Source: Sycobia sp. Sy_11 (lineage: Eukaryota > Arthropoda > Insecta > Hymenoptera > Epichrysomallidae). From it: a DNA stretch of 64,000 nucleotides. A program made the position numbers and the translations under genes. The notes under the pieces were generated by a model, which was not told where the DNA came from, did no database searches, and saw nothing but the letters and a program-made list of their open reading frames with translations. The stretch covers positions 3,645,001 to 3,709,000 of the forward strand of contig JACCIC010000002.1 in the NCBI GenBank assembly GCA_018907035.1. Direction: 5' to 3'. Positions 1,513-38,434 of the stretch are shown here, one piece after another. Every line of letters begins with the position of its first letter. Within the stretch, counting starts at the first letter, position 1.

Positions 1513-3305
1513 TCAATTAGTCATATCTTCCAGCGTAAAACAATACATTCTAAATGTGCCCCATCCAGTTTGGCCTTGTATTGCCTGAAAAATAGACAAG
1601 CAATACTCCGTACTGCTTTTCATAAATACTTTTGCAGTCAGATGATCTGGTCTAATCGAGCATTTTAATCCTCTCAGATTGTAAGAAAATAGCTGTCCTC
1701 CATTCATCCCAATCTTAACAAACCTATAGTTACTATCGGGTTGTTCATCGCATATAACGGCAAAGTGTCCCGCGATCGTTGGATTATACAAGGCTATAAA
1801 TTCGCGAATTCCATTTTCTATATTTAATGGCATAATGTTCAAAAGCAAACCATCGTAATTATATAAATTGCATTTGTTGACAGTACAGAATGAAAGAATA
1901 CCATTGGTAGTAGACCAACCAAGATCCTCTTCTTCAGGTTTGGTTCCTAACGTCTTAATTCCTGAAAGATTATTTAGAAAACAAAATAAATAATTTCTAA
2001 ATTCAAATTTCAGTCAGAATAAATAATCATTAGTAAACCTTAATATGATCTATTTATTATATTTCAGACATAGTATTGATCCTTTTCTTAGACCGATGAA
2101 AGACACGGCGACAAATAAACATTATTTACGAAAATTTTTAAAGAATAAAAGTTAATCAATTATTTTTTGTGCTCTTAATTATTTACTACATTGAAAATAT
2201 TCATAAATTATTAATCAATGGCATCTAATTGTGTGCTTAGTATACGAAAAAATGTCAACAATACATGTATCAACTAATTCACAAGAAATACAGACATATA
2301 TTGTTGAAGATGTTTTGGTATGTTTCGCTAAAAATTATCATATTTCACATATTCGTATTTTGAAAAGCTTATTTAAATATGAAATTATAATTCTGAATTG
2401 AAAATAATAATTTTGTAATTATATGAAGCTTAATAGAGTTTTACTACCTAGACTAATGTATACAAAAGACTTAAGTAGATTTATGCATCTACTGGTAAGT
2501 TAATACAGTTACTAATTTACTAAAGAACTAACTTACCATTGTTACTCAACAGATAATAATTCAGATTCTCATCTTTTTCGAGAGCAATCATAATCTTGTT
2601 AGCATGATTTTCAATTTTTTCGATAGAATAGATTATACCCTCGAAATAGAACCATTTTTCCACTTCACTAGCTCTTCCATTTTCGTCTATAGTAATACTG
2701 CAGACATGAGTACCACACTTATCGCTATCCCTAAAAGAGACGGCATAATTATTTAAGGAAGTCGTGATAAATATTTGTGCTCTTTCGTCACCACGGTCAT
2801 CAACTATTAATTTTTTTACTACTGAGCTACAGTTTAACATGTTGAAGGTTTCTATCGTAATTAATGTACGCTCTGAAATGTCATTATTACTGTAATAATC
2901 ATATTCATAATCATCAAAATCGTCATTGTCATGATCTTCATCTTCACGGCCATTATTTAATTCACGCCATACAAAAATGATTTTGTATTCACCCCAAATT
3001 TGTACATCTATATATTTAATTTTGCCTTTCGTATGCTCAGTTAGTAATTCAACTGAACATGAGTATCGTTGAATATCGTCAAAGACGTTTTTTTCAAGTT
3101 TTAAGTGGCATCTAGCAGTCTGATCATAAGGATCATTATCACAGAGTGCATAAGCTGTTGATATTTTATCAACATTATTGTTTCCGGTTACTACAAGTTG
3201 ATTTTGAAATCTATAACTCTTGGACCAACTTCTTGGACGACAGTTAACTTCCAAGTTAAAGCATAAAACTGCAAAGATTATCATTGCTAGGTTCAAAGAT
3301 GCCAT
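1513..3305 (-). CDS. array copy 1: secreted 12-cysteine protein, unrecognised family
   Basis: Coding exons are 2537-3305 and 1513-1961 on the minus strand. The donor is GTAAGT at 2531-2536 and the acceptor is CTTTCAG ending at 1962. The intron is phase 1 and the joined frame is open for 405 residues. The ATG at 3305 is chosen because it starts a hydrophobic signal peptide with Cys22 at the likely cleavage region, as in the other copies. The mature protein begins RPRSWSKSYRF and has 12 cysteines at the positions shared by all five copies. An acidic loop rich in Asp, Glu and Tyr interrupts the first half, after the WREL motif. The alternating hydrophobic strands and Gly turns resemble a beta-propeller, but that is inference. 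Copies 1 and 5 are the most divergent. I do not recognise the family and assign no function; secretion is the only supported property. Confidence 0.85.
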
Positions 3306-3535
3306 CTCTGACGTTAAAAATAGTATCGCTTTGAACAGAAATTTTATATTATCATTTAAAATTCTATTATTTAAAAAAATAATAATACTTATTGACAATA
3401 AATTCAAAAATACGATAATCTTGAAAAATAAATAAAATTAAATAAGTTCCACTCGATATGGATACACGGTGCTAATTTAATATAAGCATACATGCAATGG
3501 ACTTATTTTATATAAAGTTGAAGAGTTAAAGTTAT

Positions 3536-3611
3536 ACTTACAAAACATTTATTACGTGACCGTTAGGTAATTGATTTGAACTGAGTGTTTGGTTTATCGA
3601 GCTCATAAATA
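3536..3611 (-). promoter_or_regulatory. copy 1 core promoter and non-coding first exon
   Basis: On the minus strand a TATA-like TATTTATG (3604-3611) is followed about 22 bases later by CTCAGTTC (around 3579-3586), which contains the arthropod initiator TCAGT. A short leader then runs to the donor GTAAGTATAAC (GTAAGT at 3536-3541). The same TATA, AGTTCA, leader, GTAAGTATAA layout occurs upstream of copies 2, 3 and 4. The acceptor of this first intron is least clear in this copy: an AG follows TTCTGTTCAA about 30 bases before the ATG. Confidence 0.6.
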
Positions 3612-6240
3612 CAAAAACACACTTATTGACTTATATGATTCATATGCATAAATTAAATATCATTCCAGATAGTTCATATTGAAGAAATTAAGTTTTAACT
3701 AAAAAAACAGACGGACAAAAGTAATTATTATTTAAGTATATTTTTTCAAAGGATTGTATACCATTCAATTCTAACGAACATAATATTGCAAAGAATCAAA
3801 TGATATCATATGTAAACAAGAATATAAATAATTAGATGATAACTAAACTTATTAATCATAACTTCACTGAGCTGGCTTACAAGTAGCTTGAGAAAATAGT
3901 TAATATGGATCGAAAAAATGCATGTCACACATCTAAGGAACAGATGTTGTAGAGAATTTTTTGGAGTCGAGTGCTTATTATTATGTATATCATTGTTAAT
4001 TGAGTCTAAACCGAGTACTTCTGCATACATTGAAATGACTGAAGATGAGTTTTTGAAAATTGAGTATTCGTGCAACAGAATACGCCATATCACAAATGAA
4101 TATATGGATGATTATTTTTAGAGATAGTCAAAAAATTAGAACTAACAGCAATGAAGGTCGACATAAAAATAACATACACGGTGAGAAAAATGTTTGGTCA
4201 TTTTTATTTCAGCCACTCGAATAGATGTACTTGATCAGGTTAGCGGTACATGACATTTTATTTATTTTAACTAAAGTACTACTATAGATCCTACGTTTTT
4301 ATAAATACATCGAAAAGTGTCGGTATAGCAATGAAAGTCTCAATCAGCGTTAACCTAGTACAGTCAAATAATATATGACCAATGGACATAAGCGGCAATA
4401 ACTTAATTTTGGACTGAATATAAAGAAACAGTTCTTTCAGTGCAGATGGCCATGGAATAGAAATCTAATATTAGCCATGGCCTTAATTTCGGATAGAATC
4501 AAGGTTAGAATGAGAGAATGGTAAGTACTCGAGGAGTACATGGCCATGATCATTAGTACATTACTTTGTAACTTACAGATGTATTGAAACAAATTAAATT
4601 ATTTACAGATAAGCATTTAGCAAAATAGAATAGAAGTTTTTAAACACAAGTGAGTTCTATAGAACTTTTTTAGAATATAAACCTACCTCTCATGCTGCAG
4701 AAGCTTGAGAAGCGGTAGTTGATGCAATGACTGGATTGTCTTGAAGTCAGTCAGAAACGACTATGCTAAGAAACCAGAAGACAGATAAATTGGTGAATGA
4801 CAGAAGTGGCTAAACTCAGAAATAATTTTTTAAAGCTGAATAAAAGTTTTTAATTAGCTATAAGTTGATATGACATGGTCTTTGACTCTGTAAAATACAC
4901 CATTGTCAGGCAGTGTTTAATATTCACGAATAATAACAGTAGGCGCAGATATTGGAAAAAGACTAATAAATTAGTTAGACTCATATTTTTAGAGCTATAA
5001 GATTCCGTTGGTAGAAAAAAAAATAGAAACAATGGGAAAAAGTAACCAGGAATATTTTTGACCATTCAGACATAATAGACTTAAGTCTAACATCGATACT
5101 TCTTTTTTACACATAAAGAGTTCCTCAGAGAATCTAATGCGCTGAAATATAAAAAGACTCCATGTCTCAATATTATTGGAATAGTCGAGATATTTTTCTC
5201 GAATTACTCAACAAGAGTTTGATAAAGAGAAGTGTTGAGAAACTATGGAAGAATTCTTAACTAATTATTATTAATCTATGTCTTCCTACGAATTTTTCTA
5301 TACTGTGGATATGGTAATGAAGCTGCTAAAGCATTAGTTTCAAACAAGTAAGGTGAATATATTATTTTCTCAGACCGATAAGATCAATGAAGAATCAAAA
5401 TTGAATAAAAGAGTAGTGTAACAAGACTTTAAATGTATCGTCACGCATCATCTGTCCGTCAGACTAAAGTAATTCACATAAGAAATACATGATTATCGTG
5501 ATGTAAACAAAGATATGTATGTTGAATGTATGGGAACACAAATTTGTGTTCCGCCATGCGTACTCCTGCACTGAACAATTCAGTTTTCTTAAGGTACAAC
5601 TATGGAACATGGAAAAAATATATTCACAGACTCTTGAAATGAGAAAACAAAGGAAAATTGATGTAGATAGACTGATCCACTCTAATTCGCACATAACTTC
5701 AAAAGTATTTTTTAAATTTTTAAAGTAGTTTCTAAAAATGGGAAATTCCATATTCAATATGTTTTGTCTTGAATGTTATTTTATATCGTTAGAAACATTT
5801 TTATTTTGATCAAAGTTTTTATTATTCGTACAAATTACCCATGTATTATCCTCTTGTATTTTTAGAATATTGTGTAATAGTTTACAATTGAACATATGTA
5901 TACTATGATCGTTAAGTAGAGAATGTATGAAGATACAAGTATTGCTAATTATTAATAATTATTATACTCTATTATAAAAATATAATCAGAATACATAAAA
6001 TTTGACCATTTCAAGTAGGGAGTGCATACAAATATCGCAAACACGATGGTGTCGATACACTTATTAATTACAACGAAGTTATTATCAATTCTTATGATAA
6101 ATAAGTAAGAGTGGTTGAACAATTTTTCTATAAACAATCTATAAAAAGTATTCTATATTTAATATAGAATAAATTTCGTATTAGTTTTGATACATTATAG
6201 ATATATTAGAGACGATTAATATTATTTGTTATAAATATAT
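3612..6240. other. spacer between copies 1 and 2
   Basis: This is AT-rich DNA without a convincing gene. The plus-strand frame at 3918-4121 (67 aa) has a hydrophobic stretch followed by STSAYIEMTEDEF and could be a small secreted peptide or a broken exon; I cannot identify it. Frames between 4850 and 5757 are fragmentary. The right part, from about 5780, weakly resembles the DNA downstream of copies 3 and 4, which suggests an old duplicated spacer. Confidence 0.35.
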
Positions 6241-6467
6241 ATAATAATAGATTTTTTGTGTTATTAACGAACTTTAAGTATATCATGAAAATTAGTTTAA
6301 ATTATATATAATTTGTAATAGTCATGTCAAAAAATTTCCTTTTGCAGTTTGAAGAAATATATAACTTATTTTCACAAGTAGATATTAATGTTGCCTAAAT
6401 CGACTTATACATACAAAAATTCTAAGGATAATTCTGTTAGAGAAGTAAATTTTGCTTAGGGTTTCTC

Positions 6468-7233
6468 TCAATTCGACATCTCGTCGAGGGTATAACAAAA
6501 CATTCTAAATGTGCCCGATACACGTTCGCCATTCAATGCATGAAGAATAGATACACAATATTCTGTACTGCTTTTTCGAAAAATGTCCACGGTCAGGTGA
6601 TCTGGTTTAACTGAACATTTTAATCCATCCAGTTCGTTATAATATTGCTCTACTCCATCCTCCCTAATTTTAACAAAACGGTAGTTACTATCTTCTTGTG
6701 CATCGCATATCACTGCTAAATGTCCTGGGGTGGGTGTATTATATAGTGAAATCACCTCATTAGGTGTCTGATAATTCCAAGTCAATGGTACAGTGTTTAA
6801 AGAGATGCCATTATAATCAAATAACTTGCATTCCGTAACAGAACAGAATGAAAGAATACCATTCGTACTAGACCAACCAAGATCCTCATCTTCAGTACTG
6901 CACCCCAATGCCTTCAATTCTGAAATGTTAAATATGAAAACTTACTTCAGAGATGAAATATTGCGAAAAATGAATGAAAATAGTTTATCAAGAAAATCAT
7001 CAGTTCAGAGATATGAATATATAAATTTAAATATATTAGACACAAACGCATAACTTTATACATAAAATATCCTGAGGAATTGAATATTGTAATTACAAAA
7101 TGCAAAATAGTAACACGCACTAAGGCATAAAACTTGAATATTTCGGACCACGGGGATAGTATTAAATGAGTTTACTATATAAAATTTTTAGCGACGAATA
7201 GTAGAACATAATAAAATAGTAGCGTAAAGTAAA

Positions 7234-7278
<45 letters not shown>

Positions 7279-7775
7279 TAATTTATTTATTTATTTACAG
7301 ATAGCCACGTTTTATATAACGATAGTCGAAAAATGACTTAAACATCATGATTTTAAGGTTAGAGTTTTAGAATTTGTGTCATATTTTTAATGTAAAATGA
7401 AAGTTCTATATTTTTATATTCTATTTATTTAATGTAATAACGTAACAGAATTAAGATCCAAAAAAAGTATATGAACTTTATTTATTGCACATTCTTATAG
7501 TTAAATTATAGGACAACAATAAAACGTTAAAACTGAAGCTTCAATTTATTTATTTACATGTTAGACAGTTTATATCCGAAAGAAGCAAATGAATAAAATC
7601 TCGCTCTAGGTAAATAATTAATTTAATATGTACACTACTTTATTATGTGGAATCGGCTGAATAAATGTATATTATCCACATGTTTAAATCGAACTATGTG
7701 CAGGTGCGTATGTGATGCATGAGCGAAACGAAACTAATACACAGGTTATAGATAGTTCACTTTACGTTTTTGATG

Positions 7776-7834: not shown

Positions 7835-8739
7835 TATTCTGTTATATTTGGGGAATTCTATGTAATAAATTGTTATGTTTCTTATCTTCCTATTTGTAAA
7901 ACCTATCATGAATGTGAAATTAATATTATAACTAAAAAATAATCAATTATTAATTATATTGAAATATAAGTAAATAACTTACTATTGTTACGTAACAAAT
8001 AATATGTTAACAACTCATTTTCATCCAAAGCAATCACTATTTTGTTAGGATGGTTTTTAATGCTTTCTATAGAATAGACTGCATCACTGGCATAGAAAGA
8101 ACGTTTTATTTCACTAGCTTGATTATCTTCGTCCACAGTTATTTTACAGTAATTAAAATCACAAGTATTGTCATGCAGGAAGAATACGTCAAAACTATTG
8201 TGGGAAGTAGTAATAAATATTTGATCTTCTTCATCACCAGTATGATCAATTTCTAGTTTTTGTACTGATGATTGACAGTTTTCCATGTTGAATGTTTGTA
8301 TTGTTAACATTGCACTTTTCGGCTGAATGTCATAATCATACTCATCATCATTGTCTGCATCCTCATCATCTTCCGTTTGGGAGAAATCGAATAGTTCCCG
8401 CCATGCGAAAATCACTTTATCGTCGCCCCAGACCTGCGCTTCTGAGTATTTAATTACTCCGTCTGCATGTTCAGTTACTAACTCCACTGGGCAGGAGAGC
8501 GATCGAAAATTAGTGAATACATTTTTTTCCAGCGTAACGATACATGTAGCACTCTTTTCATCGTGCCTAGTTTTACAAACTGTATAAGCTACCGATCCTT
8601 TATTAACATTATTTTTTCCAGTTACTAAATTTCTATTGTGAAATTTATAACTCTTTACCCAATTCCTTGGGTAACAAATGACTTCTGAGGTACAAGATAA
8701 AACAGCAAATATTACCACCACTAGCTTTGACGCTAACAT
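6468..8739 (-). CDS. array copy 2: secreted 12-cysteine protein, unrecognised family
   Basis: Coding exons are 7983-8739 and 6468-6919. The donor is GTAAGT at 7977-7982 and the acceptor is TTTCAG ending at 6920. The intron is phase 1 and the join gives 402 aa. The start is the ATG at 8739; the frame is open further upstream only to a TTG, and an acceptor TTTTCAG sits at 8765-8767, just 25 bases before the ATG, fixing the 5' edge of this exon at 8764. The signal peptide ends near Cys22 and the mature start is YPRNWVKSYKF. All 12 family cysteines are present. The acidic loop is short and mostly Asp and Glu. The 1.06-kb coding intron holds two (TA)n tracts. Its exon 3 and intron 2 are closest to copy 3. 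Function unknown; secretion is inferred from the signal peptide. Confidence 0.87.
7236..7274. repeat. (TA)n tract in intron 2 of copy 2
   Basis: A nearly pure TA dinucleotide run of about 39 bases, followed by a TTTA-rich stretch. It lies inside the coding intron of copy 2. Confidence 0.9.
7777..7828. repeat. (TA)n tract in intron 2 of copy 2
   Basis: A TA run of about 50 bases, about 150 bases from the splice donor of copy 2. It makes a spurious Ile/Tyr-repeat open frame. Confidence 0.9.
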
Positions 8740-9206: not shown

Positions 9207-10426
9207 TATGGGTGTACAAGTAAGTTTCCAGCGTTTCTTTTCGAAAATGTGAGATTTTATCATAAAAACATAGTTACGTAACTTTTATTCCAAGTATTGT
9301 GCATAGGAAGCTATAAATTTTTGCCATCTTTCTGGCAGTTGAAAAATTCCGGCAAACAAATTTCTTGTCTTTCGAGCCCATTTTTTATTCCCTCTCATTA
9401 GCTGAAACGTATTCCCGTCAGAGCTTGCTGCATTGGTCGAAACAAGTGGTAGTGAGATGGTGCCAAATCTGGACTGTAAGGTGGGTGAGGCAGAATTTCA
9501 CATCCACTATTTTCCAAATAGTTTTTGACCAAAGCCGCAACATGTCGCCCAGCGCGATCGTAATGAAACATAACGGACTCATACCTGGTCTCATATTCTG
9601 TCCGTTTCTCCTGTAATTCTTACTTCAAACGAATATGTTGGGTGCACTACAGTGATACTCTGATGGTTTTTCCACTTGAAAGGAGTTCATAGTATATGAT
9701 ACTTTTTTGATCCCACCATAAACAGAGAATGACCTTATTTACCGAAATATTTCGTCTCGCTGACGATCGTGCGTTCTCGCTAGTCTTTTTATACGATTTT
9801 CTACGTTCAGGATTATCATAATACAATTTTTCATTATCAGTGATAATATGATGAAAAATTGATTTATTTTTTTACCTCTGCAGCAAGATTTCGGACATCA
9901 ATATTCGCCGTTCGATGTTCTTGGCTTCAATTCGTACGGCATCCAGTTTTCAACTTTTTGAATGAATCCGAATGATTTTAGGCGCAGACTAACAACTTGT
10001 TGTGTGATACTCAATGATGCAGTAACTTCTTCGTGAATCTGACATGGAGCCTCATCCAGTAAAGCGTCTAATACCTCGTCTTCAAAACTTTCAAGGCTTT
10101 CCAGAGCAATCTTTGTCTTCAACTTAAAAATCACCTCTTTTGAACCATCTGAACCACTTGCGGTACATGAATTCACCAATTTATTAACATATGAAAAAAT
10201 AGAAGCAGCGCTTGACGTAAATGACTTTTATTTGACTGGAAACTTGCCATGGTTTTTCTCGATAAAATAAACGATACCAAAAGAAATGCTCAAACAAAGT
10301 GCTGCAGAGTTGTTGACAGATACACAAACTATAAATAAAACACATGCGTTCTAATATTTCTACCCGCAACCACTCGTGACGCCATCTTTTGAGAAACGTA
10401 ACTTAACTTACTTGTACATCCAATAT
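9207..10426 (-). mobile_element. degenerate mariner element in intron 1 of copy 2
   Basis: Imperfect terminal inverted repeats flank the element: on the left GGGTGTACAAGTAAGTTTCC from 9211, and on the right, read on the minus strand, TTGGATGTACAAGTAAGTT inside 10405-10424. A TA dinucleotide lies at each edge, as expected for mariner targets. The length, about 1.2 kb, fits a mariner. A broken transposase lies inside on the minus strand, the same strand as the host gene. The equivalent place in copy 3 intron 1 (about 23311-23325) lacks the insertion, so the element arrived after those two units separated. Confidence 0.88.
9285..10250 (-). pseudogene. mariner transposase pseudogene
   Basis: From an ATG at 10250 the frame breaks early. 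It resumes at 10179-9898 with a recognisable helix-turn-helix region (FEDEVLDALLDEAPC, then SITQQVVS, then PYELKPR). After further frame changes come LCLWWDQK and IIYYELL, then HYDRAGRHVAALVKNYLE, then LPHPPYSPDLAPSHYHLF, and a C-terminal LPERWQKFIASYAQYLE followed by a stop at 9285-9287. Mariner transposases use a D,D34D triad. Here the first Asp region reads TDNE where TGDE is usual, and the third Asp is His in SHYHLF. With the stops and frame shifts it cannot be active. Confidence 0.9.
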
Positions 10427-11756
10427 TTTACAAAAAGTACAATTTGTAAAGAAGTTTTGAGCGATATTATAGAATTATGTATCAAATTACGATGTCTCGT
10501 GAGTTTTAAATTAATTTTCTTGCATTTTTGTCTTATTTATTATTTCCTTTCTATTGGAAATCTTTCAGTCAAAAGGGTTTATATAATATGGGCTTGTAGA
10601 GTTTATATCGAGCTCTTACCGTGAACACACGTGTTTACTTTCGTTCTGTGTATATAATAACTAACGTATCTGAGACGCCTCGAGCATCTAATATAACTAA
10701 GCGACTAATATAACTATGGGTACAGAATTGTGCAACAATATACCTCTTAACGACATCCCAACATTTGTAGCAAAAGACAGAACAAATTACGGTTCAGTAG
10801 CCCAAAAAATCTTATACCTAAAAAAGATCAAAGACTCATCATGAACTGTGTGGACAACTTAAATTTAACTGACTATGTATGTAGTATTGGCAATATTGTT
10901 GAATCTAAAAATGTTCTTTACGCCTCAAGAATAGTTAACAACCGATTCTGCATAATTTTAATTAATTTTGTAGCTATATAACTCTCAAGAGAGAGTTGAA
11001 ATGCTTAAATAAAAAAAAACCGAATCTATATCTATCTATCAATGAAAGAACTAGTAACTGAAGTTACATATAATACAGTTATAAATAATATAGTTAATAA
11101 ATTCACAGAACTAATCCTATTTGCAGCAACGAATCCATACCAAAAACAAGAAATAGATTTCGAAAGAAATGCACTCCATGGTGGAATGCAGAGTGTGATA
11201 AGGCTATAAAGGAATTTAAAAACGCGCTTTATAAATATAAAAAGAAAACTTAAGTGATACAAATTATACACGCGAATTCTGGATACATCAATACAACCGA
11301 AAATCATTCAGAAACAGCTCACAAAAAAATTTTATACGACGACAACCCACTCAAAGAGTATATTAAACTTACCGAATTAAACAAAGTAATTGACTCTAGC
11401 AAAAATACCAGCCCAGAACCAGATCAGATTCCCAATATCTTTATCAAAAATCTACCAACCAATACTCACGAATTACTTGTATTAATTAACAATATCATAT
11501 GAACAAATCATACATTCCCTAATAAGTGGCAAATAGCAATAATAATACCTATTCCTAAATCAGGGATGAATAAAACAGACAAAAAATTACAGACCTATTT
11601 CCTTGACATGTTGCCTATGTAAAATACTAGAAAAAATTTTGTACAACAGATTCCGGGACAATACAAGGTGGGTTCAGAAAAAATTATTCTACTATAGACT
11701 GTTTAGCAAAATTACAAAAAAACATATGTAACGCCTTTCATCTCAATCATCATATT

Positions 11757-12503
11757 ATGGCGGTCTGCTTAGACCTAGAAAAGGCCTACGATTTAGTATG
11801 GAGAACTAGAATTCTACAGCTACTCAATAAATATCATATATCAGGTAACATGTATTATTTTATAAAAAAATTTCTAAATAATATAACTGCCAAAGTTCAA
11901 ATAGATAATGTCCTTTCTCAACCAATCAAAATTCAAAACGGAGTTCCCCAAGGTTCCGTCATAAGTGTTACGCTATTTCTACTGGCTATTAACGATATTA
12001 TTAAGTGTATCGCCACCTATAAAGTGCACCATTTTTGCAGATGACGTCATCATATTTATCGAAGGCCAAAACCTTAAAACAAGTGAAAAACTAATGCAAC
12101 AGACTCTGTTTAAAATTACTGATTTTGCCAATACTTCTGGGTTCAAGTTCTCAAAAAATAAAATACAAGCCATAGTCTTTACTAAACAAAAAAAAAACAA
12201 AACGACAACCCAACGCTAAAAGTCGCTGATGAGACAGTCATAATGGTACAAGAAGTCAAAATCCTCGGAGTCATTTTCGATGCGCGTCTTTCGTGGAAAC
12301 CCCATATAGAAAATCTTAAAAGACAATGCTTACTCAGATTGAATATTTTTAAAATCTTAGCTGCTCGAAATTGGGGATTGAACCAATATATACTAATGAA
12401 TATCTTTAAATCAATTGTCCAAGCCAAAATTGACTACGGTAGTATAGTTTATGGAACCACCAAAAGTTGCATCATAAGCATATTAAACACAGTATTCAAT
12501 TAA
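11757..12503 (+). pseudogene. LINE reverse transcriptase domain, frameshifted
   Basis: Three overlapping frames give one reverse transcriptase: the first to about 12010 (palm blocks up to LLAINDI), the second from there to about 12190 (FADD active site, then SGFKFSKNKIQAIVF), the third from 12243 (ILGVIFDARLSW). FADD corresponds to the catalytic xxDD of the family and is intact, but at least two frame shifts separate the parts. Confidence 0.85.
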
Positions 12504-12973
12504 TGTCTAAGAATAATCTCAGGAGCTTATCAAACAAGCCCAGCCAATTGGGCTTAATAAATGAAAATAGAGTGTTGCCATTAAATTTAAGAAGTGAGAA
12601 AATAACAATCAATTATATATTAAAAGTACTCTTTTCAAACAAAAATCAAAACTATAGCACAATTATAGAAAATAGGACAAAACTACTGCATAATAATTCA
12701 AATCCTAAAAGTACTATGCCATTCTATTATAAAACTATAATGTTACTAAAAGAAAAAAGAACATATAAATATAGAAACAGAGTCAGCACGTACGACAATC
12801 AAACAGGAACTAAATCAACAAATTATAGATAAAACCAATTCGTCATATTGTGAAATTAAGGAATTATATCTCAATTCTAAAGTGATATATTTAAACGTAA
12901 TTCAAGAATCAAACATAATTAGCGCAATAGCAATACTACCAAATAATAGTAAAATCCTATTAAAATTTCCAAA

Positions 12974-13516
12974 TTGGCTAAATACGCATGGAGTAATGTT
13001 AGTAACAATCCTAAACGTCCACGACATGCCAGAAAAATATATAATTTTCTTTTATCTTCCTTCACTTTTCAAGGTTCCACAATATGCTCAATAGAATATG
13101 CAAAAATAACCATGCAATTAGAATCAATAAAAATTTACAAAGAAGAACTTCGTCAAATTGCCGACAGGATAATTAAAAACTACCACTTGAAAAAAATTCC
13201 ACCCAATATATACGATTTTAATCCGGCGCTAAAATCGACTTTAAATCGAAGAAATCAAATAATTATCACCAGACTGCGGATCGGCCATACAAATCTAACA
13301 CACGAGCATTTGCTCAAAAAGTCTGATCCTTCAAGATATATTCAAAGCAAGCAGCCAATAAATTTTGAACATTTGTTAATAATATGTCCAATATTCGCAA
13401 GCCAAAGAAGAAAATTTCAATTGCAAAACAACCTCAAGGAGATACTCAGCGATACGGAACAATGCAAAAACGTTCTAAAATTTTTGAACGAAACAAAGTA
13501 CATTAATTTAATTTAG
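12974..13516 (+). pseudogene. LINE 3' coding remnant (possible RNase H tail and C-terminal region)
   Basis: A 180-aa open frame ends at 13516. Its last third (ITRLRIGHTNLTHEHLL, then EHLLIICPIFASQRR) matches the region after RNase H in I/jockey-type LINEs, although the usual Cys residues before the CP are partly lost. The first third may be a decayed RNase H end. It is part of the same dead element as the frames upstream. Confidence 0.7.
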
Positions 13517-18799: not shown

Positions 18800-21700
18800 T
18801 CAATTTAACATATCGTCAAGGGTATAACAAAACATTCTAAATTTGCCCGATCCACGTTCGCCATTCATTGCATGAAAACTCGATACACAATATTCTGTAT
18901 TGCTTTTCTGAAAAATTTTCACTGTCAGGTGATCTGGTGGAAATGAACACTTTAGATCCGCTAAATTGTCAGAGTATTGCTCTACTCCATCCTCCCCAAT
19001 TTTAACGAAGCGATAGTTACTATCGTCTTGTATATCACATATCACTGCCAAATGTCCTGGGGTGGGTGTATTATATAGTGCAATAATTTCGTTAGCTGGC
19101 TCATGATTCCAGGTCAATGGTACAGTATCTAAAGAGATGCCGTTATAATTGAATCGTCTGCATTGGCTAATAGTACAGAACGAAAGAATACCATTCGAAC
19201 TAGACCAACCAAGATCCTCATCTTCAGTGTTGCACCCCAATGTCTTCAATTCTGAAATGTTAAATATTAAGACTTACTTCAGAGATGAAATATTGAGAAA
19301 AGTTAATGAAAATTGTTTATCAAGAAAATCATCAATCCAGAGACATGAATATTAAATTTAAATATATTAGACACAAACGCATAACTTTATACATAAAATA
19401 TCCTGAGGAATTGAATATTGGAGTCAAAAATCTAAAATAGTAAAACACGCACCTTGGGACAAAATTTAAATGTTTCGAAATACGCGGATATTATTGAAGA
19501 AGTGGATTGCGATTTGAGTAATTTTCTTAGGTGGTGAGTTTACTATATTTAAAAAAATTTTTTAGCCACAAATAGTAGTACTTAATAAAATAGTATTGGA
19601 AATTAAATCTATATATACAAGTAGCTATTTATGTATTTGTTTGTTTTATGGATGTCGTTACTTAATAGAGTTAATTAATGGCATGTTTTCTGTGGAGAAT
19701 ACATTTAAATCATATGAGAACTAGAAATTCAAAGGCACGATCGCAATCATAGTTAGATATATGAACGATCAATTTAATGAGTGAAGTAAGACAGCAGAAA
19801 TAATTTCGTTTTCTGATTTATAAAATTAAGTATTGGAGTCTTTCTATTCTCAGAATAGACGTGCAATGTACAATAAATATTGAAAAAGAAATCAGTATAA
19901 TGTAGATATTAAAGATTTGAAAGATAGTTATCCTCGTCAATGGACTATGGAAGACAGATACTATTAAATTAAAAAAAATACATAATACTGAGGCTAGCTG
20001 ATTCGATAGCAAATAGATTTTTCATGAATTATCAAATTGAGAGGAACGCCAAAAATACTTGCGCTATATTTAAATGCAGAAGACATAGACAGATGTACAG
20101 GATATTCTGTCGAACGAAGTGCAAAAAAGCGCAAAAATTAAGGCCAATGCAGTTCTACACTTCGTGAAAATGCAAAAAGCTAGTGGAATGGCGAACAGAT
20201 TTTGTAGCTGTAGGGTATATTGAAATCTCGACTAAATATAAAAAATCGATTTTTTGGAATTGGAAATGAATTACTTTAGTTTAGTAGAAACGAAATATTG
20301 GTACATTAATAGAAAACGAAAATCAAGATAGAAGCCGAAGGAATGCGGGACATTAAACCATTAATATCAAAAACCAAAAGAATCATAATATCAAATATGT
20401 AACTATGTGTTCCGACATCTCTAAATTATGGAAGAGCTAAAAAAATAAGATATTGTTCATGCATTATGTTTTACGATAATGAGAGAGGGTATACACATCG
20501 TAGCCTTGAATCATATATTAAGCTATTTTAAAGCAAATGTATGTAAATTCTGAAGATGTTACAAAAATGCGCACATCCGACTGACGCATGAAAATATTAA
20601 TTACTGGATATATTTTTCATGAGAAAAATTAACTTGCTTCTGCTGCAAAGACGAAGGACATCTTTTCAAATACTGTAAAAATGCAGACAAAAATAGAATG
20701 TATACAATTTATTATTAATCAAAAATTTAATAACTTAATAGAAAGTAAAATATCTCTTATAAATAAAAACAACAGATCAGCAGAGCAAGAGGACTTTCCT
20801 GTGTTTTCGTCGACTCTGGCACTGAAAAGTAAAAGGCCATGGTCAAGTGCAGCTTTTAATACCACGATTCAAGATTTGGATACTGTAGCGTAAATAAAAG
20901 AGAAGACTATCCCAGTGCAAAAAACAAGAAGGGAAAAAAGAGGAAAATAAATATACAGTCCATTATGTAACGCAATTAGAACCAGCCAAAAATTTCTTAC
21001 AGGATAGTCAAGGTAAAGATCAATTAAAGATAAATTACATACGAGCAGATCCTAGAATTAATAGCAAATACACTAAGTTCATCTAACGTAACAAATACCA
21101 CATTATTACACACACAACATCACGATAATAAACATACTCACTGACGCCTATCTATATCTTACTGGTCAAAATATTAAAAGTCAGATTATGCTTATTAGAA
21201 ACATTTTATAACAAAGCAATGGAACTGTTGCAGGTCTCTCTATAGACATCACGTACAGTACGGATGAAAATAATATATTCAAAGCATACTAAATGGACTC
21301 CACTGCTGCTAAAAGCTTAACTATCAATAATTACACTTTAAAGTTATTTTTCTGGAATATAAGAACATTAAAACAGTAGGAAAACGGAATACAAGTAATT
21401 TTAAAGAAAATTGATATATTTATATACGTCGAATCTTGGCTTCGACCAGAAGAAAATTTTCAAATATGGGGCTTCATTTCTTTTTAGCAAGATAGGGATC
21501 AGGAAACAAGGGGCAATAAAGATGCATATGAATGCTGATTCAAAAAAATATAAAATTCACTCAATTGAGAAATATTTTATCAACGGGAAATTCTGTGGAC
21601 ATATTTGACATTTATATTTCTAGTAAAAGATTTCTAGATCAATTTCTAGATCCAGAAAGACTAAACTACAACAGATATCATATGACGTATACGAATTTTG

Positions 21701-23036
21701 ATTATGGGATATCATATTCGAAAATTCCAATGTATATACAGCTGGGTAGCAAGCTTTTAAATGCGAACGATTCGAACACTATACCGCATACCTTCTTAGG
21801 AGAGGAAAAAACTGTAGCAATCTATACTGATGGCTACAAGGGTTTCGAACTTCCTTTATGTAGGCGCTTCGTGTGCATGCCGAGAGCTAAGTATTTTAAT
21901 TGATCAAACAATTCATTAAAATATGGCAATATATAGAGCGGAAAATATAGTAATATTGAATGCTGCAAACGTAGCACTGTAATATCCACGATATAAATTT
22001 TTAATTTTCTCTGATTCTCTGAGTACCGTAGTCACTTCAAATTCCCACAAGTTAATAATTTTATTGAACATTTATAATTTAAACATGATAAATTATTACA
22101 TTAATGTAAATTGAGGTAATGTATTACATATAATTTATTACATATAATACACAAGCTAAATAAGCTCGAGAAAGTCTTCATGTATAATAAAAAAATATAT
22201 TATGATTTAAAAATCATAATTATTAAGGATATGTAAATATAAATAAATAACTTACTATTGTCACGTAACAAATAATATGTTAATAACTCATTTTCGTCGA
22301 TAGCAATCACTATTTTGTTAGGGTTTTCCTCAATGTTTTCCAAAGAATATACTAATATTATATCATCCACAGGGAACCAAGCTTGTATTGTACTAGCTTG
22401 ATTATCTTCGTCGACAGTCATTCTGCAGTAATGAGCATCACAGATATTGTCATCCCTGAAGAACACATCAAAACTATTTAAGGATGTAGTAATAAGTATT
22501 TGACCTCCTTCATCACCCGTATGATCAACTTCTAGTTTTTGTACTTTTGATTGGCAAGTTGTCATATTGAATATTTGTATTGTTACAAGTGCACGGTTCG
22601 GCTCATTGTCATAATAATCATCGTGATCATCGTCTTCATAATCATCATCATCATTATCATCATCATCTTCCTTTTGGGGAAACTCGAATAGTTCCCGCCA
22701 TACGAAAATCACTTTGTTTTCGCCCCAGAGCAGTGCTTCTCCATATTTAATTATTCCGTCTGCATGTTCAGTTATTAAGTCCACTGGGCAGGAGAACGAT
22801 TGGAAATTCGTGAACACATTTTTATCAAGTGTTACTGTACATTTAGCACTCCGTCCTTCCTGACCAGTTTTACAAACTGCATAAGCTAATGATCCTTTAT
22901 CAACGTTATTCTTACCAGTTACTAAATGCTTATTGTGAAACTTATAACTCTTTACCGAATTCCTTGGGTAACAGATGACTTCTGAGGTACAACATAAAAC
23001 AGCAAATATTACCACCACTAGCTTTGACGTTAACAT
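18800..23036 (-). CDS. array copy 3: secreted 12-cysteine protein, unrecognised family
   Basis: Coding exons are 22256-23036 and 18800-19251. The donor is GTAAGT at 22250-22255 and the acceptor TTTCAG ends at 19252. The phase-1 join gives 410 aa. The ATG at 23036 starts a signal peptide; the frame is open further upstream but an acceptor TTTCCAG at 23062-23064 marks the true exon edge. The mature start is YPRNSVKSYKF and all 12 cysteines are present. The acidic loop is long and largely Asp. NMTTC gives a possible N-glycosylation site. The coding intron is 3.0 kb because it holds a dead LINE on the opposite strand. The first part of the first coding exon resembles copy 4 most, while its end, intron 2 and the last exon resemble copy 2. 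Function unknown. Confidence 0.87.
20040..22080 (+). mobile_element. degenerate LINE in intron 2 of copy 3, RT domain missing
   Basis: The plus strand, antisense to copy 3, carries three LINE parts in order. First, a CCHC zinc knuckle at 20635-20676 (C-x2-C-x4-H-x4-C), typical of the ORF1 (gag-like) protein. Second, an endonuclease start FFWNIRTL near 21350, then IYVESWLRPEENFQIWGF near 21424-21477. Third, an RNase H domain: AIYTDGYK near 21817, then IYRAENIVILNAANVAL near 21929 and FLIFSDSLSTVV near 21998. The reverse transcriptase that should separate endonuclease and RNase H is gone. Many stops and frame shifts show it is dead. Ends are approximate; no target-site duplication was identified. 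Confidence 0.8.
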
Positions 23037-27576: not shown

Positions 27577-29166
27577 TCAATTTGACATATCGTCAATGGT
27601 ATAACAAAACATACTAAATGATCCACGTTCGCCATTCATTGCATTAAAAATCGATACACAATATTCTGCATTGCTTTTCTGAAAAATTTTCACTGTCAGG
27701 TGATCTGGTTTAACTGAACATTTTAATCCTTCGAGTTCGTCAGAAAATAGCTCTACTCCATTCTCTCCAATATTAACGAAACGATAGTTACTAGTTTCTC
27801 CTGCATCACATATCACTGCCAACTGTCCTGCACGAGGTAAATTATATAATGCAATAATCACATTAGGCCGATGACTCCATTTTAATTTTACAAATTCTAA
27901 GGAGGACCCGTCGTAATTAAATCGTTTGCATTTAATAATATTACAGAATGAAAGAATTCCATTGGAACTAGACCAACCAAGATCATCTTCTTCAGTGCTG
28001 CTCCCCAAAGTTCGTACTCCTGAAAGGTTCATTATTAAGGTTCGTTTGAGAGATTAAATTTTTGAAAATGAAAATAGTTTATACAGTATAGCAGTTGATT
28101 TTTAAGGGAAGCACTAACTGTAATGTTAATCTAGTGTTATAGAAATTAAATTCAAAGGTACAGCTAATACATAAAATTTTGCGGCGAAGGTAATGATGCA
28201 ATCAAAAAGTTCAAATAGTAGAACGCGTACCAAGGAATAACATTTAAATATTTCAGAACGCGTTTGCTAACATATTGATATCTTGCCAATATATTTGCGC
28301 TTTTACTAATACTTTCGCGTAAAGTTGTTCCATAAAATCTCAGAAATAGAAAGAAAATTTCAACTCAATCTAGTTTCATTTCAACTGATTACGCTACATT
28401 TGTCGATATTAAGCACCCATATCTACTATCACAACCAGTTTTTAGAACAGAATTAAGAAGGAATATGGTTATTATCATTCGATTTTTACCACCAATTTTA
28501 TAAGAAAAGTTTATAGAAAAATGGAATACATAAAAGTCAATACTTATTAGTATATTAAGTAGAAATTTTAGTATACTTTGTTATAAATTGTTTAATTTCA
28601 TATTTTGTATTTTTAGAATCTCTCATTCACATGAAATTAAGATTATAAACGAAAAATAATATCTTTTTAGTGAAAAAACGTTTAAAAATATTGTTTTTCA
28701 AAATAGATTTACTCAAACATAGAAAAGTCAGAAGTAGAGTCAGATTCGAATGTTGAAATTACAATTCAAGTTAATATACTAAATAAATAACTTACCATCA
28801 GCACGTAACAAATGATAGAATATGGAACTAGATAAACTGATAGTAATAAATAATTTGTTAGCATTGTTTTCTATATTTTCAATAGAATGCATCATCATTG
28901 TATCAGTAAAAGAGAACCAAGGCTGTATTGCACTAGCTCGATTATTTCTGTCCACGGTCATTCTGCAGTATTTCAAATCACAGGTACTGTAATCCCTGAA
29001 GAATACCTCAAAACTATTTAAGGAAGTAGTAATAAATATATCACCATCTTCATAACTAGTATGATCAACTTCTAGTTTTTGTACTGTTGATTGACAAGTT
29101 GCCATATTGAATGTTTGTATTGTTACAAGTGCACGTTTCGGATCATTATCATAATACTCATCATTG

Positions 29167-29197
<31 letters not shown>

Positions 29198-29588
29198 TAT
29201 TGTCAACAATATCATCATCTTTCTTTTGGGGGAAATCGAATAGTTCCCGCCAAACGAAAATCACTTTGTTTTCGCCCCAGAGCCGCGCTTCTCCATATTT
29301 AATTATTCCGTCTGCATGTTCAGTTATTAAATCCACTGGGCAGGAGAACGATTTCAAATTAGTGAACACATTTTGATCGAGTCTTACGGTGCATTTAGCA
29401 CTCTGTTCAGCATGACGAGATTTACAAACTGCATAAGCTACTGATCCTTTATCAACGTTATTCTTCCCAGTTACTAAATTTTTATTTTGAAATTTATAAC
29501 TCTTTACCAAATTCCTTGGGCTACAGATGACTTCTGAGGTACAACATAAGACAGTAAATATTACCACCACTAGTTTTGACGTCGACAT
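27577..29588 (-). CDS. array copy 4: secreted 12-cysteine protein, unrecognised family
   Basis: Coding exons are 28796-29588 and 27577-28019. The donor is GTAAGT at 28790-28795 and the acceptor TTTCAG ends at 28020. The phase-1 join gives 411 aa. The ATG at 29588 starts the signal peptide; an acceptor TTGTTCAG at 29614-29616 lies 25 bases upstream. The mature start is SPRNLVKSYKF. All 12 cysteines are present (for example C55, C66, C83). The acidic loop at residues 123-149 includes ten Asp in a row, encoded by a GAT-rich microsatellite seen as (ATC)n on the plus strand near 29161-29200. The end of the first coding exon differs from copies 2 and 3, and the last exon is three residues shorter. 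Function unknown. Confidence 0.87.
29161..29200. repeat. coding (GAT)n microsatellite in copy 4
   Basis: A trinucleotide run, ATC on the plus strand and GAT on the coding strand, with few interruptions, inside the acidic loop. Triplet slippage here changes loop length without breaking frame. Confidence 0.85.
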
Positions 29589-32108: not shown

Positions 32109-32274
32109 AGACTGAATAAGATTCTACAAAACCAATAATGTAAAAAACTATTATTACAAATTTAATAAAGTATTATTACGATTTTTACTAAACTAAAATT
32201 TGTAATAATCTCGTATAAAAGCCACGTCATATAGGCATACGTAATGGAGTCTTTTGCAATAGAGTTTAAGTTAT

Positions 32275-32353
32275 ACTTACAGAAACTTTATTATGTTACT
32301 TCCCAATATTCGACTTGAACTACATTTCTCATTTGTCGTTCTTCCCTATTTAA
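32275..32353 (-). promoter_or_regulatory. copy 4 core promoter and non-coding first exon
   Basis: On the minus strand: TATA box TTTAAATA (32346-32353), TAGTTCAAG near 32313-32322, a leader with TATTGGGAAGTAAC as in copy 2, and the donor GTAAGTATAACTTAAA (GTAAGT at 32275-32280). With the acceptor at 29614 this gives a 2.7-kb intron 1. Confidence 0.68.
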
Positions 32354-32359
32354 ACACCT

Positions 32360-32907
32360 ACTCATCTGCATAGATAAATGCATCCCAATATCATTCTGAA
32401 CACTTATGGCGCTTATATAAGGATTTACATCGTTTTCTCTGTAACAGCGTCAGATACTTATGTATTTCTATTTATATATAGGGTGTCTTCAAAGTAATAC
32501 CACATATTGACAGATTAATAATAATCAGGCGATAATTCATCGTACAGTCATGTGTATGAAATATTGTCTAATTTTTTTGCTTTTTGATTAAATAATATTT
32601 CATTTTATTATATTACATTGATTAAGAACTGATTGATTCGACATAAACAAGTAAGAATAGTTATAAAATTCGTTGAAGATTCATCTTAAAATTGAAAAAT
32701 GATATATAAAACTTAATTTTTCATGATGAGGATAGTCAACAATAAATCTTGGCAATACTTCTTGTAAACAAGCATATGATTAATTTACTTCTCGTTTTCT
32801 TTATTACGAACATCCAACTTTCAATTTTGAATACATTGAATACAAAAATTAACTTCACTTAAGAATCTACTCACAATTATTATTATTATGCATTGTTTCA
32901 GTTCAGA

Positions 32908-32968
<61 letters not shown>

Positions 32969-35000
32969 TCTTAAAGCTCGTTAAATTAATTTCAGAATTA
33001 AAATCCAACTCTCCAAAGTAGAAAAATTCTATACTTACAAAATGTTTTGTGATAATGAACATCATCACTTGTATATCTGTAATATGGAAAAGCAATTTTG
33101 AACAATGTAAACATTTGTTAATTATAAATAGATATCCTTTTTTTAAATTACGATTGAACAGCTACGTATGAAATGTAATTCTTCATATTCTATGTAGTTG
33201 ATTAGCTGTCGCTTAAATAATATTATATTAGCTAGTCTGTTTTTCTTCTCTGTCTCTCTGTTCATCTCTCTTTTTCTCTCTGAAAGAATAATAATTAGAC
33301 TATTCTTTCTTAAATATGGTGTTGAAATCAAGATTCTCACGATATTTCTTCAGATTTTTACTATCTTGCAGTTTTTATGCTTCTTAGTCTACGTATTGTA
33401 ATTAGAGGATTTTTTAGCAAAATGTTTAGACTTATTGAATACATGTCTAGTTTATTAACAGAAGCTATTTCTTAGAATATAGAGTATTTATTTTGCAAGT
33501 TTTTGGCTTCTTACCACAAACGTCATTAATTGAAGGAATAATTATTATCGAAAATATTTCAAAAGCTTTAAAAAATTATGATTTGAATTTATCTTGGAAA
33601 ATACGAACAAATTTAAGAAATATTTGTAACAAAACATATAGGTCTAATCGAAAGACATTATAATTCTAGAACTTTTTTCGCTGAAAAAATATTTCTGGAG
33701 AAAAAAATCAGCATTTCCTCCTCAGGATCCCTTGAAGCATCAGTGGTCGATGTGGTCCAGAAATCCACAGGGTTCCCATGGCCTTTTTTTATTCGCACGG
33801 ATTCAAAAGATTTTGTAAACGTATTATAACTTCCTATACACGATTTCCAAGGGTATCTTGTTCGAAAGCGGTAGACAAATGGTTATTAATAATTTCATTG
33901 TTTCAAAAGACTGTAAAAACCAAACCATGCTATAGAATGAAATTTTAAAGCACTACGTCTCATAAATTTTTCTCTAGAAATCAGCTAATTTTTATAAAAT
34001 CTAACAATATTGGTTACGTCTCGAGATATTGCACATTTAGTCAATATAAGCAGTAAAATTACGTTCCGCGCTCACTTTTCCTTAGAAGCCTTCTTCAACA
34101 TAGCTGGTCAATTATTCCTATCATTGTATGAATTATATTTACTTATGATATTATTTTTTTGTTACGTTCTTTCGATTTTGAAAATGTAAACATTTTTTAA
34201 CAAGTTATTAAAAATAAATATAAAAGAGAAACTCTTGAAAATATTCATATTTTGAAGAATCCCAATAATGTAAATTTAATGTTAGAGTCAAGTAAATTGG
34301 ACAGCACTTATCACTCCTTATTAATATAAAATTTGTATTTCGCATTTAAGTTAAGAAAGCGGGGTCCTGTAAATGTTATACTAATAAATTTAGAGTGGGG
34401 ATGGGGTATATAAAGTAGCATACTGGGTTTTTCAATTTAGTTTAGTTCCTGAGGAAGAACCGTAGTGGTTCGGAACTTAGGACACCAAGGTGATTCTAAA
34501 TTTAAGGTGGTGGGTGCAGTCAGGTTGTCCTTTACTAACATAGAATAGTGCTTTTATTATTTTTATTTTATTATTAATTTTATTTTATTTTTATTTTTAA
34601 TTTTTAATATAATTTATTGTAGTAATAACTTTTATTTCAGATTCTACGCGGGTGAACATAAACAAGGACAGTCTGACTGTCATTATTTTAGCTAATATAT
34701 TATATTATAAAGACTGTAAGACCGGTAAAAATATTTATTAATTCAATATAATCAGTTTGAATATATAAATATAATGTAAACCTTTTTTTTTAATAATAAC
34801 AAATTTTAGTTATATCAAGGATATTGGTCTACATAAGAATCTTTCCCTGAGTTATGAAATGTTAATAATTTTTTTTTATTTTAAAATATAATTATTTCAA
34901 CTAGAAAGTACCACAGTTTACAAGTAATTTCTGCTTTGTGCTTGGCCAAAAATAAATAGGTCAGTGAGTTTTCAAACAGACAAGTGGATTCTATTTGAGT
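32360..35000. other. spacer between copies 4 and 5
   Basis: AT-rich DNA without a convincing gene. A (TA)n tract lies at 32913-32965. Upstream of the copy 4 promoter, around 32470-32540, there is a partial match to the GGATGTCTCC-AAAGTAA region that precedes the conserved block of copies 2 and 3. A Penelope-like remnant lies at 34448-34560. Confidence 0.4.
34448..34560 (+). mobile_element. Penelope-like terminal sequence remnant
   Basis: CCTGAGGAAGAACCGTAG followed by TGGTTCGGAAC, then AAATTTAAGGTGGTGGGTGC and a TTTTATT-rich tail; homologous to 30142-30260. It has a CUGANGA-like box, an AACC/GGTT hairpin and a GAAC-like box, which resemble a decayed hammerhead core. A TATA-like GGTATATAAAGT lies about 40 bases upstream, near 34405. 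Confidence 0.45.
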
Positions 35001-35028
35001 TTTCTCTCAGATTGGTTTTCATCAAGTC

Positions 35029-37043
35029 TTAACTAATCATATCGTCGTTAGTAAAACAATACATTCTATAACTTGCCCAACCATATTCGCTAAATATACC
35101 TTGGAAAAGCGATACACAATATTCCATTACACTTTTCATAAATATTTTTACGGTCAGGTAATCTGGTTTAATCGAACATTTCATTCCTCGCATATCATAC
35201 GAAAATTGTTGTTCTCCATTTATATTGAGTTTAAGAAAGCGATAATTATTATTTGGTGGTGAACTACAAGCAACTGCCAAATAGCCCCCAAAGGGCAAAT
35301 TGTAAAATGCCATAACCTCACTAAGCTCAGGCTGTGTACGTAATGTTATATTCATTAACGATCCTCCATCATAATTAAATAGTTCGCATTCGTAGATGGA
35401 ACAAACAAGAATAATATCGTTCGAAGTGGACCAACCAAGATCATCGCCCAAGTTATTTTTCTTTAATATTTTTATTTCTGTAAATGGAAATTTTAATATA
35501 TCCTTAAGAAATCAAATTAAATTAATTTTTAACAATATGAAATAAAAGAAATATGAAATATTAGTTAGATATGTACAACAATCAATTCATAATAATCGCT
35601 GAAAATATTGAATTGTAATTATTCGTTATTATTTACTACTAAGCGTCAAAAAGATATATTGTAAATAATTTACTAAAGAAACAAAATCAGTTAATCACCG
35701 AAACCTTAAATTCTTACTATTTAAAAGGTCAATTTAATGTCAATGTTAAATTAATTATTTAATGCCAATTTAATGTCAAAATGGCAATTTAATAACAATG
35801 CTATCAAAAAATTTTTAAATTGCAATGCAAATACCGATGCTAAATTTTGCGCCTTTTACTTTATGGCATAGAAAAAATTTTTAATGTAGAAGATCTTACG
35901 TATAAAAATAAATTAAAAATATTATACTAGGTCAAGGTCGTTAATGCAAGCATTCATTCAATCAGAACATTTCAAATAATTGACGAATTTGTAAAAGTTA
36001 TGATTTATATGCAAGTTATGCTTTTTAAATATCATCATGTTGAAGTATTCTTTGAAGTAATAAAGCTGCAAAATATTCTCTGTGCACCTTATTTTTGAAA
36101 ACATAAATGGGAAATAAATATTTAGAAATTTTAAATGTAATAATTAAAGTACATTTACTAATTTTGACTATATCTTTTATTATCAATTCTCTGCGCAGAA
36201 AACTATATGATAAATTATTGACGAAGCTGTTTTTTTTTTTTTTGAAAGAAAACTTGTTTTATTTTTTCCTTTTCAAATATTTTATATGCGCTTATTAATT
36301 AATTATAAGAAAACTGAACGGAACAACTTACCAAACGGAGTCACCAATGAGAACAACACCTTGTCCGAATTCTCATCTTCCTCTTCGATAGATACGACAA
36401 CCCTGTTATCATGATTGGGAATATGATCGATAGCATATGTCATGCCGACCTTCGTGAACGACCTTTCCACGTCGAAGACTTCGCTATTACTAATTACGGT
36501 CATTTTGCAGAATTCATTGTCGCAGAGATCGTCATTCATAAAGTAAGCGCTAAGGCTGTTCACATCGGTAACGATGAATATTGAATACTGCATGTTGTCG
36601 GCTCGGTCAATCGCCACAGTGTACACCGTTGCATCGCAGCTTGTCATGTTTATTGTTTGCAGGACTGCTATGGGCCGCTGCGTCGAATTCGTGTCAATAT
36701 CCCGCCACGTGAAGATTACTCTGTCTTCGCCCCAGAGCTCCAATCTGAAATGGTCAATTTTTCCAATTGGGTTTGCGGTCGCCAAATCCAGCGTGCACGT
36801 GTCCGTTTCAATGTCATCGAACACGTTCCTTTGCAGTATCACTTTGCATCTCCCGCTCTGCTCGAAGGGATCGATTTCGCAAAGTGCATAGGCTATCGTT
36901 GTCCTGTCAATGTGATTAATTCCGATTACCAACTGTTGATTTCGAAATGTATAGCTCTTTACCCAACTTTTTGGGCGACAGCTGACTTGCGAGCTGCAGC
37001 ACAATATTCCAAGCATCAACATCGCCGACTTTAAACGTGACAT
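35029..37043 (-). CDS. array copy 5: divergent secreted 12-cysteine protein without acidic loop
   Basis: Coding exons are 36332-37043 and 35029-35477. The donor is GTAAGT at 36326-36331 and the acceptor TTTACAG ends at 35478. The phase-1 join gives 386 aa. The ATG at 37043 starts a signal peptide (hydrophobic core LMLGILCC, Cys22); an acceptor ATTTCAG at 37074-37076 lies about 30 bases upstream. The mature start is RPKSWVKSYTF and all 12 cysteines are conserved. The acidic loop of the other copies is replaced by a short DTNSTQRP turn carrying a possible N-glycosylation site; a second lies at INMTSC. Its first coding exon is visibly richer in G and C than those of the other copies. It may be the most ancestral or most constrained member. 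Function unknown. Confidence 0.87.
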
Positions 37044-37073
37044 GATCTGCGTTCAAATTAGCGCGGTTTCCGA

Positions 37074-38434
37074 CTGAAATATATGTACACAATAAATATA
37101 TATATCATTAATAACTTTCAATAAAAATTTCATTGTTATCATTTTCTCAAAGATTAGGTAGTTTTTAAACCTTTAATAAGTATTAAAAATTCTTATAGAG
37201 CATTTGATTTAGATTATCTATTACTGATATTTTTATTTGTGTATTATTTCTTAACGACGGTCGGTACTTGTAAGTATCGGAAAATCGGAATACCATAAGG
37301 GTGTTTCTATATATACCGATTTTACGGACCAATGTATAGTGTACCACATTAGACGATGTGGAATCGGCATTTTCTACGTATTGGGTTCAAGCTTCTTTTG
37401 TATCTCTGTTGTAATAAACGATACCGGAGCTTCTGCTGCTCGCAGGTATATTCTGGTGTGATCGGGGTTAAGAGATTGTGAAATTTCTCATACAGATTTG
37501 ATTGATCTTGAGTATCGCCCAGTATTATCGATCGATACTTATTTAAATAATAATTGCATGTTTACATTCTCTGAAGTTCGATTGGTTTTTTTGATAAAAT
37601 TAGCGTCGAATCGAAATGGCTGCATTTCTTTCGCTTCGCTCAAATGAAACAGTGATATCAACGGGTGAATGAAATATAAGGAGGTAGTTATAATCGTACA
37701 TGAAAGAGGAGTTTAATTAAATATATAGGAAAGTAAAAAGATAATTAGAAATGGCCAAATCTTCTGGAGCGTAATTAAAAATCAAATTAAAGAGCATCAA
37801 CTCTGACCGTTTATTGGGTTTCGTTGAAAGAAATTCAAAGAAAATCGCGGTCGTTCGAAAGGGGGCAAATAGTGCTTCAGTTGTATATCACCTAAAGTCA
37901 CTTTAGAGTATAGAAAATCTAGAATTCGCGATATACCAAGATCCTTTGGAAGATGGATTCTTCTTAATTTTGTTATGAAAACTCGGTCGATTATCGTTCA
38001 TCTGTGCTCGAGTTCTAAATTTCAAATAATTTTTAGGATAGTACAGCCGCAAGTTTTACTCGGCGTCAAACTTCCGATGAATAATTTTTGCTTCGAAAAT
38101 ACTCACTTAAGATGTCACGTCAACGTATAATGCAGTTCTTTCATTGTGGCGGGAGCCCACGTCGAATGAATTTAGCCAAGCGCGTGTATCGCAATGGGAC
38201 GAACGAGGGACAGGCGGGTAAGGATTCTTATTTTTGAATTTACAAGAGAATGAAATGAGGTTATGTAAATTCCGTGGAATGGGATTTACGGGGATTTACG
38301 TTGACAAGCTGATGAGTCACCGTATACAGGTACGTCGCATTTCTTTTCCAAAATCCTTCTCATAATAGTCACGACGCCAACACCTCGTTTCGCGTTAAAC
38401 ATGACACTAGCTTTATCAAGGTATTATGTTTTCT

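Follow-up and report, generated by a model that had tools for sequence, protein, structure and literature searches.

A tandem array of five genes in a 64,000-nucleotide stretch of the Sycobia sp. Sy_11 genome (contig JACCIC010000002.1, positions 3,645,001 to 3,709,000; hereafter the window) is one cluster, about one-twentieth, of a genome-wide family of approximately 100 genes. As judged from sequence, this family probably represents an explosive, lineage-specific expansion of soluble binding proteins that are secreted and built as propellers with disulphide locks, and that would come from glands and be directed at a host or partner. Taken jointly, a genome-wide secreted family and a propeller fold are considered highly probable. 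The whole account, in which a secreted propeller family of about 100 genes originated from a founder and supplies variable exocrine binding modules, is moderately likely, and an externally acting secretion as the site of action is plausible, if still short of probable.

The array consists of five intact genes with two coding exons each (g1 to g5, Table 1), arranged head to tail on the minus strand between positions 1513 and 37043. The original prediction had described these paralogues over 1513..37076; all five were found where it had placed them and its first position was retained, whereas the coding end falls at 37043 with the start codon chosen for g5. In each gene, coding exon 1 ends at a GTAAG donor and exon 2 opens after a CAG acceptor, and the introns (575, 1063, 3004, 776 and 854 nt in g1 to g5, respectively) are GT-AG and phase 1, with the frame kept across all five joins, as had been claimed, and a terminal stop in every gene. 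The products (405, 402, 410, 411 and 386 amino acids) begin with a hydrophobic segment that resembles a signal peptide by eye, and share 37-73% pairwise identity. Thirteen cysteines are invariant in their alignment, the first of which (residue 22) stands at the likely end of the signal peptide, thus leaving in the mature protein the 12 that had been predicted. An insertion rich in aspartate and glutamate (approximately residues 120-148) is found in g1 to g4 only among the 23 gene models described below, the other 19 being without it, and the aspartate run within the g4 insertion is encoded by a GAT trinucleotide repeat.

The 621-Mb assembly that contains the window (472 contigs) was searched for further members. 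With g4 exon 1 as the query, at least 195 matches were obtained at E ≤ 0.001, frequently two from one gene, while counts of loci and of open frames were made on exon 2 only. Two very different exon-2 queries, g5 (109 matches at 108 loci) and the distant copy L010 (110 matches at 107 loci), have 106 loci in common out of a union of 109 on 26 contigs, which argues that the exon-2 count is near saturation at this sensitivity. The extent of five genes given in the original prediction (5 of 109 exon-2 loci) was thus approximately 20-fold too small. Among the 109 g5 exon-2 rows, 94 show an open frame across 110 or more aligned residues, eight carry an in-frame stop and seven are partial; since seven of the eight stop-bearing rows are free of stops with the nearer L010 query, about 100 exon-2 loci are taken to be open. 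Under a 100-kb rule these rows fall into 34 groups of no more than 12 rows each, decayed and single copies counted, and 70 of the 75 adjacent pairs lie on a common strand, including one pair that consists of two pieces of a single broken copy.

The architecture of the window genes is shared by copies elsewhere. Twenty loci on six contigs, taken from the g4 exon-1 match list and not at random, hold 21 further copies, 19 of them with both exons open and two broken (L022 and L028). Leaving out the two broken copies, which were not mended, and L024, for which the modelling script did not find an in-phase acceptor, 18 sampled copies joined the five window genes to give 23 models. All 23 have GT-AG sites at the exon-profile junction and 19 of the donors begin GTAAG, with weaker donors in L014, L017, L023 and L025. 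Ten of the 12 mature cysteine columns are kept in every model and two in 22 of the 23, in a set whose pairwise identity has a median of 32% and a minimum of 24%. Because the 18 copies modelled elsewhere in the genome repeat both the order of the exons and the spacing of the cysteines, the array is not a product of chance. In a phylogenetic tree g1 to g4 form a clade (support 100/97), with L014 (contig C358) and g5 coming next. The word TTTCAGT, one of the best among many words counted, was counted in nine of the 23 stretches of 300 bases taken upstream, as opposed to 0.79 expected, and by eye it stands shortly upstream of the ATG, a placement that makes an untranslated first exon likely in the family genes.

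Selection on the copies was estimated from the ratio of nonsynonymous to synonymous substitution (dN/dS; Nei-Gojobori count, 500 codon bootstraps). The ratio is 0.34 (0.24-0.46) for g1-g3, 0.45 (0.33-0.63) for g2-g3, 0.55 (0.39-0.78) for g3-g4 and 0.63 (0.47-0.86) for g2-g4, and is thus below 1 with bootstrap support in all four window pairs tested; the frames of these pairs are under purifying selection overall, in agreement with the claim that selection keeps them open. Outside the window, values of 0.39 (0.28-0.56) for L010-L012, 0.65 (0.47-0.93) for L011-L013 and 0.79 (0.50-1.30) for two L021 copies were obtained, the last being the highest of any pair.

The family had been put forward as an unrecognised, secreted, 12-cysteine one, and searches of curated profiles left it so, with no placement in any named family. 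Pfam scans gave no match above chance for four exon pieces and the five spliced proteins (E up to 5) or for the 23 exon-1 and 23 exon-2 products (E up to 1), and the WD40, NHL, kelch and sialidase propeller profiles were unlisted in these scans; scattered rows below E 1, the best of which was DUF512 at 0.011 in 2 of the 23 exon-1 members, were taken as chance. NCBIfam likewise gave no family match above chance level, and searches of PDB sequences returned chance-level rows or none. A search with g4 and a five-sequence profile returned nothing at E up to 10 from 5.8 billion proteins, a database whose insect share was not checked, and neither g4 exon 2 nor P0001, a protein described below, had a relative on viral contigs. 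No paper describing such a family was found by title or the start of the abstract among open-licence full texts.

Evidence for the fold comes from AlphaFold models of the exon-1 and exon-2 products, each built separately as a half-protein. Both are all-beta, and their fold matches are mostly propellers with modest scores, such that the beta-propeller guess of the original prediction is favoured by both exon products, but through half-proteins and modest scores. The highest-ranking Foldseek rows for the exon-1 model include the PL24 lyase LOR107 (PDB 6byt; E 8.4e-5, 13% identity, root-mean-square deviation 13.0 Å) and Caenorhabditis elegans C45G9.5 (PDB 9l35; E 2.6e-4, 7%, 11.8 Å), both with template modelling scores (TM-scores) below 0.4, and this likeness would at most reflect a common fold class. 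Each mature protein would fold into a single beta-propeller with some six or seven blades, a number that the half-protein matches do not fix, with about four blades from exon 1 and the rest from exon 2. Six putative disulphides were placed by hand from strand positions, namely C55-C66, C83-C136 and C174-C179 in exon 1 (g5 exon-1 numbering), and C25-C30, C70-C100 and C120-C140 in exon 2 (numbering of exon 2 in alignments A3/A5).

Two distant relatives bear on the origin of the family. The first, P0001, is a 437-residue database protein with the source label 'lgn' and was the sole match of the 23-copy exon-1 profile among the 5.8 billion proteins, at E 3.6. It was nevertheless accepted as kin because profile comparison aligned its exon-1 part with the family at a probability of 85% (E 6.7e-6), and because the full-family profile scored 46.5 on it, as opposed to no more than 22.4 on 60 scored shuffles and 12.75 on the reversed sequence. 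P0001 has cysteines at 8 of the 12 columns, and the four that are missing correspond to two whole proposed pairs, which favours the proposed pairing; its C-terminus carries a Ser/Gly-rich stretch followed by a hydrophobic tail that, by eye, resembles a glycosylphosphatidylinositol-anchor signal. P0001 gave two rows in the window's genome, one at E 0.83 and one strong match (E 2.7e-8) at C57:771233-772306. The gene at this place, L039, is a single open frame of 409 amino acids (L039:1381-2607, plus strand), which differs from the family in being a single exon with a G+C content of 66% and in having no identified signal peptide or upstream exon; the window averages 31% G+C. Searched against each protein singly, the family profile gave E-values of 1.4e-19 for L039 (residues 15-369) and 7e-19 for P0001; neither protein has a Pfam match. 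Ten of the 12 cysteine columns are occupied in L039, and a further cysteine lies two columns away from an eleventh; the L039 frame continues through the site of the family intron, which this gene thus does not have, and the tree sets the 23 copies opposite L039 and P0001 with support of 97/97. On the basis of the profile match, the shared cysteines, the missing intron and this split, L039 is likely the best candidate for a founder-type gene of the family. A weak match at C214:3533577 was considered as founder and rejected as a decayed copy.

A founder like L039, made up of a single exon, would have gained a mid-protein intron, after which tandem duplication would have spread its copies. The resulting proteins, of about 355-390 mature residues, would be secreted and released into an exocrine secretion, there acting as variable binding modules. 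With a constant framework locked by disulphides and a surface that diverges, each copy could bind a target of its own, a glycan or protein from a host, a microbe or a mate that it would either recognise or shield. The signal-like start, the cysteine framework, the fast divergence, the tandem clusters and the lack of any membrane-like tail recognised by eye in family products fit such an exocrine binding repertoire. It can be suggested tentatively that a hymenopteran lineage turned an L039-kind propeller gene into about 100 soluble, secreted recognition or decoy propellers that act outside the body, in which case the L039-kind gene would have a relative elsewhere in a protein that may be anchored in the membrane.

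Several observations weigh against this account. The family is known here from genome sequence and predicted models. Only phase-1 splice sites were sought, so that phase 1 in 23 of 23 models is partly by construction, and dN/dS was estimated pair by pair, with a top value whose interval spans 1, so an arms race is not demonstrated. The exon-2 part of P0001 is colinear with the family but weak when taken alone (E 0.026), and L039 and P0001 join as two long branches, which calls for a long-branch warning. Single cysteine losses disfavour the proposed pairing: L014 is without the first cysteine and L015 without the tenth, both unpaired losses, and L039 is without the ninth, with a cysteine two columns from the tenth, again unpaired. 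The fold is subject to similar reservations, and the propeller call could be an artefact of modelling half-proteins, the true fold being another all-beta, disulphide-held arrangement. This is consistent with the middling confidence of the exon models (predicted local distance difference test 69 and 78), with query TM-scores of about 0.2-0.5, with a Foldseek yield at E ≤ 0.001 of six rows from exon 1 and no row from exon 2, and with the failure to find an internal repeat signal when the exon halves were compared profile to profile; as both exon products favour propellers, such an artefact is thought improbable.

The propeller-repertoire reading must also be set beside other roles for a secreted family. 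MRJP/Yellow is a secreted insect propeller family with a precedent in Hymenoptera in the MRJPs, and appears likewise expanded in the window's genome, which makes it conceivable that the present proteins are a nutritive or storage secretion, a royal-jelly-like bulk protein food or colloid in which copy number serves dosage and not diversity; the calculated isoelectric points of the 23 mature products (4.5-7.0) would suit such a role. Dosage, however, predicts similar copies, as opposed to the median identity of 32% seen here, and the MRJP/Yellow domain PF03022 was unlisted in all Pfam scans of family pieces and products, whose exon structure and cysteine pattern are presumably unlike those of MRJP/Yellow, such that this explanation is judged unlikely. 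MRJP chains are absent among the fold rows listed, an absence that excludes nothing. Less remote, if still rather doubtful, is a role as reproductive or immune recognition proteins (seminal fluid, egg coat or haemolymph) diversified by mating conflict or pathogens, which would account for fast divergence with frames kept, a signal-like start and tandem copies, and which is not separable from a glandular role on present evidence. In the same genome 74 rows match PF03022 itself; these rows count exons and not genes, 46 lie on C324 and some contain in-frame stops. A tandem expansion of MRJP/Yellow is apparent at C324:1708167-2016526 and also on C336, C425 and other contigs.

Between g2 and g3 the window holds a mariner-transposase-like fragment (9898-10227, minus strand) and a Jockey-type reverse-transcriptase-like fragment (11631-13516, plus strand), both recognised by eye, and at 47884-48283 (plus strand) overlapping G+C-rich open stretches lie within an A+T-rich region and may represent the initial exon of a gene unrelated to the family. 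Scans of the 64 kb for Rfam families and tRNAs gave no match, and the observed-to-expected CpG ratio was 1.22. COX1 has 31 matching rows in the genome (C221, C5, C458, C101, C29 and others), apparently nuclear copies, the four best of which carry TAA or TAG stops besides TGA; a clean mitochondrial copy was not recognised among them. The CpG ratio, the Yellow/MRJP genes and one nuclear COX1 copy, the last judged by eye and informative on no family, suggest a hymenopteran genome. A gall-wasp (Cynipidae) reading was lowered: plant cell wall degrading enzymes including pectin/pectate lyase are reported from a gall-wasp genome (PMC6855507), and PF00544 has no match in the window's genome, a result that leaves other lyase families aside and argues mildly against that reading.

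Table 1. Coding exons of the five array genes (window positions).
Feature	Position	Strand	Basis and remarks
g1 coding exon 2 (including stop)	1513..1961	-	acceptor TTTCAG; exon profile match
g1 coding exon 1 (signal-like start, first protein part, acidic insertion)	2537..3305	-	ATG 3305; donor GTAAGT
g2 coding exon 2	6468..6919	-	splice site; exon profile match
g2 coding exon 1	7983..8739	-	splice site, start codon (8739), alignment
g3 coding exon 2	18800..19251	-	splice site; exon profile match
g3 coding exon 1	22256..23036	-	splice site, start codon (23036), alignment
g4 coding exon 2	27577..28019	-	splice site; exon profile match
g4 coding exon 1 (Asp run as GAT repeat)	28796..29588	-	splice site, start codon (29588), alignment
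g5 coding exon 2 (from the most divergent array copy)	35029..35477	-	splice site; exon profile match
g5 coding exon 1 (without acidic insertion)	36332..37043	-	splice site, start codon (37043), alignment

Secreted families of about 100 genes often mark central insect biology, such as venom, saliva, mating or social feeding, and since the libraries searched hold no profile for this one, proteins of this kind would be annotated as no more than 'uncharacterised'. Existing insect RNA-seq and proteome data allow the family to be tested directly, by means of its 12-cysteine profile, its conserved intron and the outgroup of the L039 type. A propeller scaffold that changes fast would, if true, offer a useful model for the evolution of binding repertoires. 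The Hessian fly SSGP and the aphid bicycle proteins are large lineage-specific families of secreted insect proteins, the bicycle genes being made up of many tiny exons. Expansions of metalloproteases and DUF4803 proteins have been described in Meteorus venom (PMC8310156). The present family is like all of these in having many secreted paralogues in one lineage, and differs from them in that none of the SSGP, bicycle, metalloprotease or DUF4803 families is matched by its proteins in Pfam. It is possible, though far from assured, that this family, absent from Pfam and from the papers searched, would be the disulphide-locked propeller counterpart of such a large effector family.

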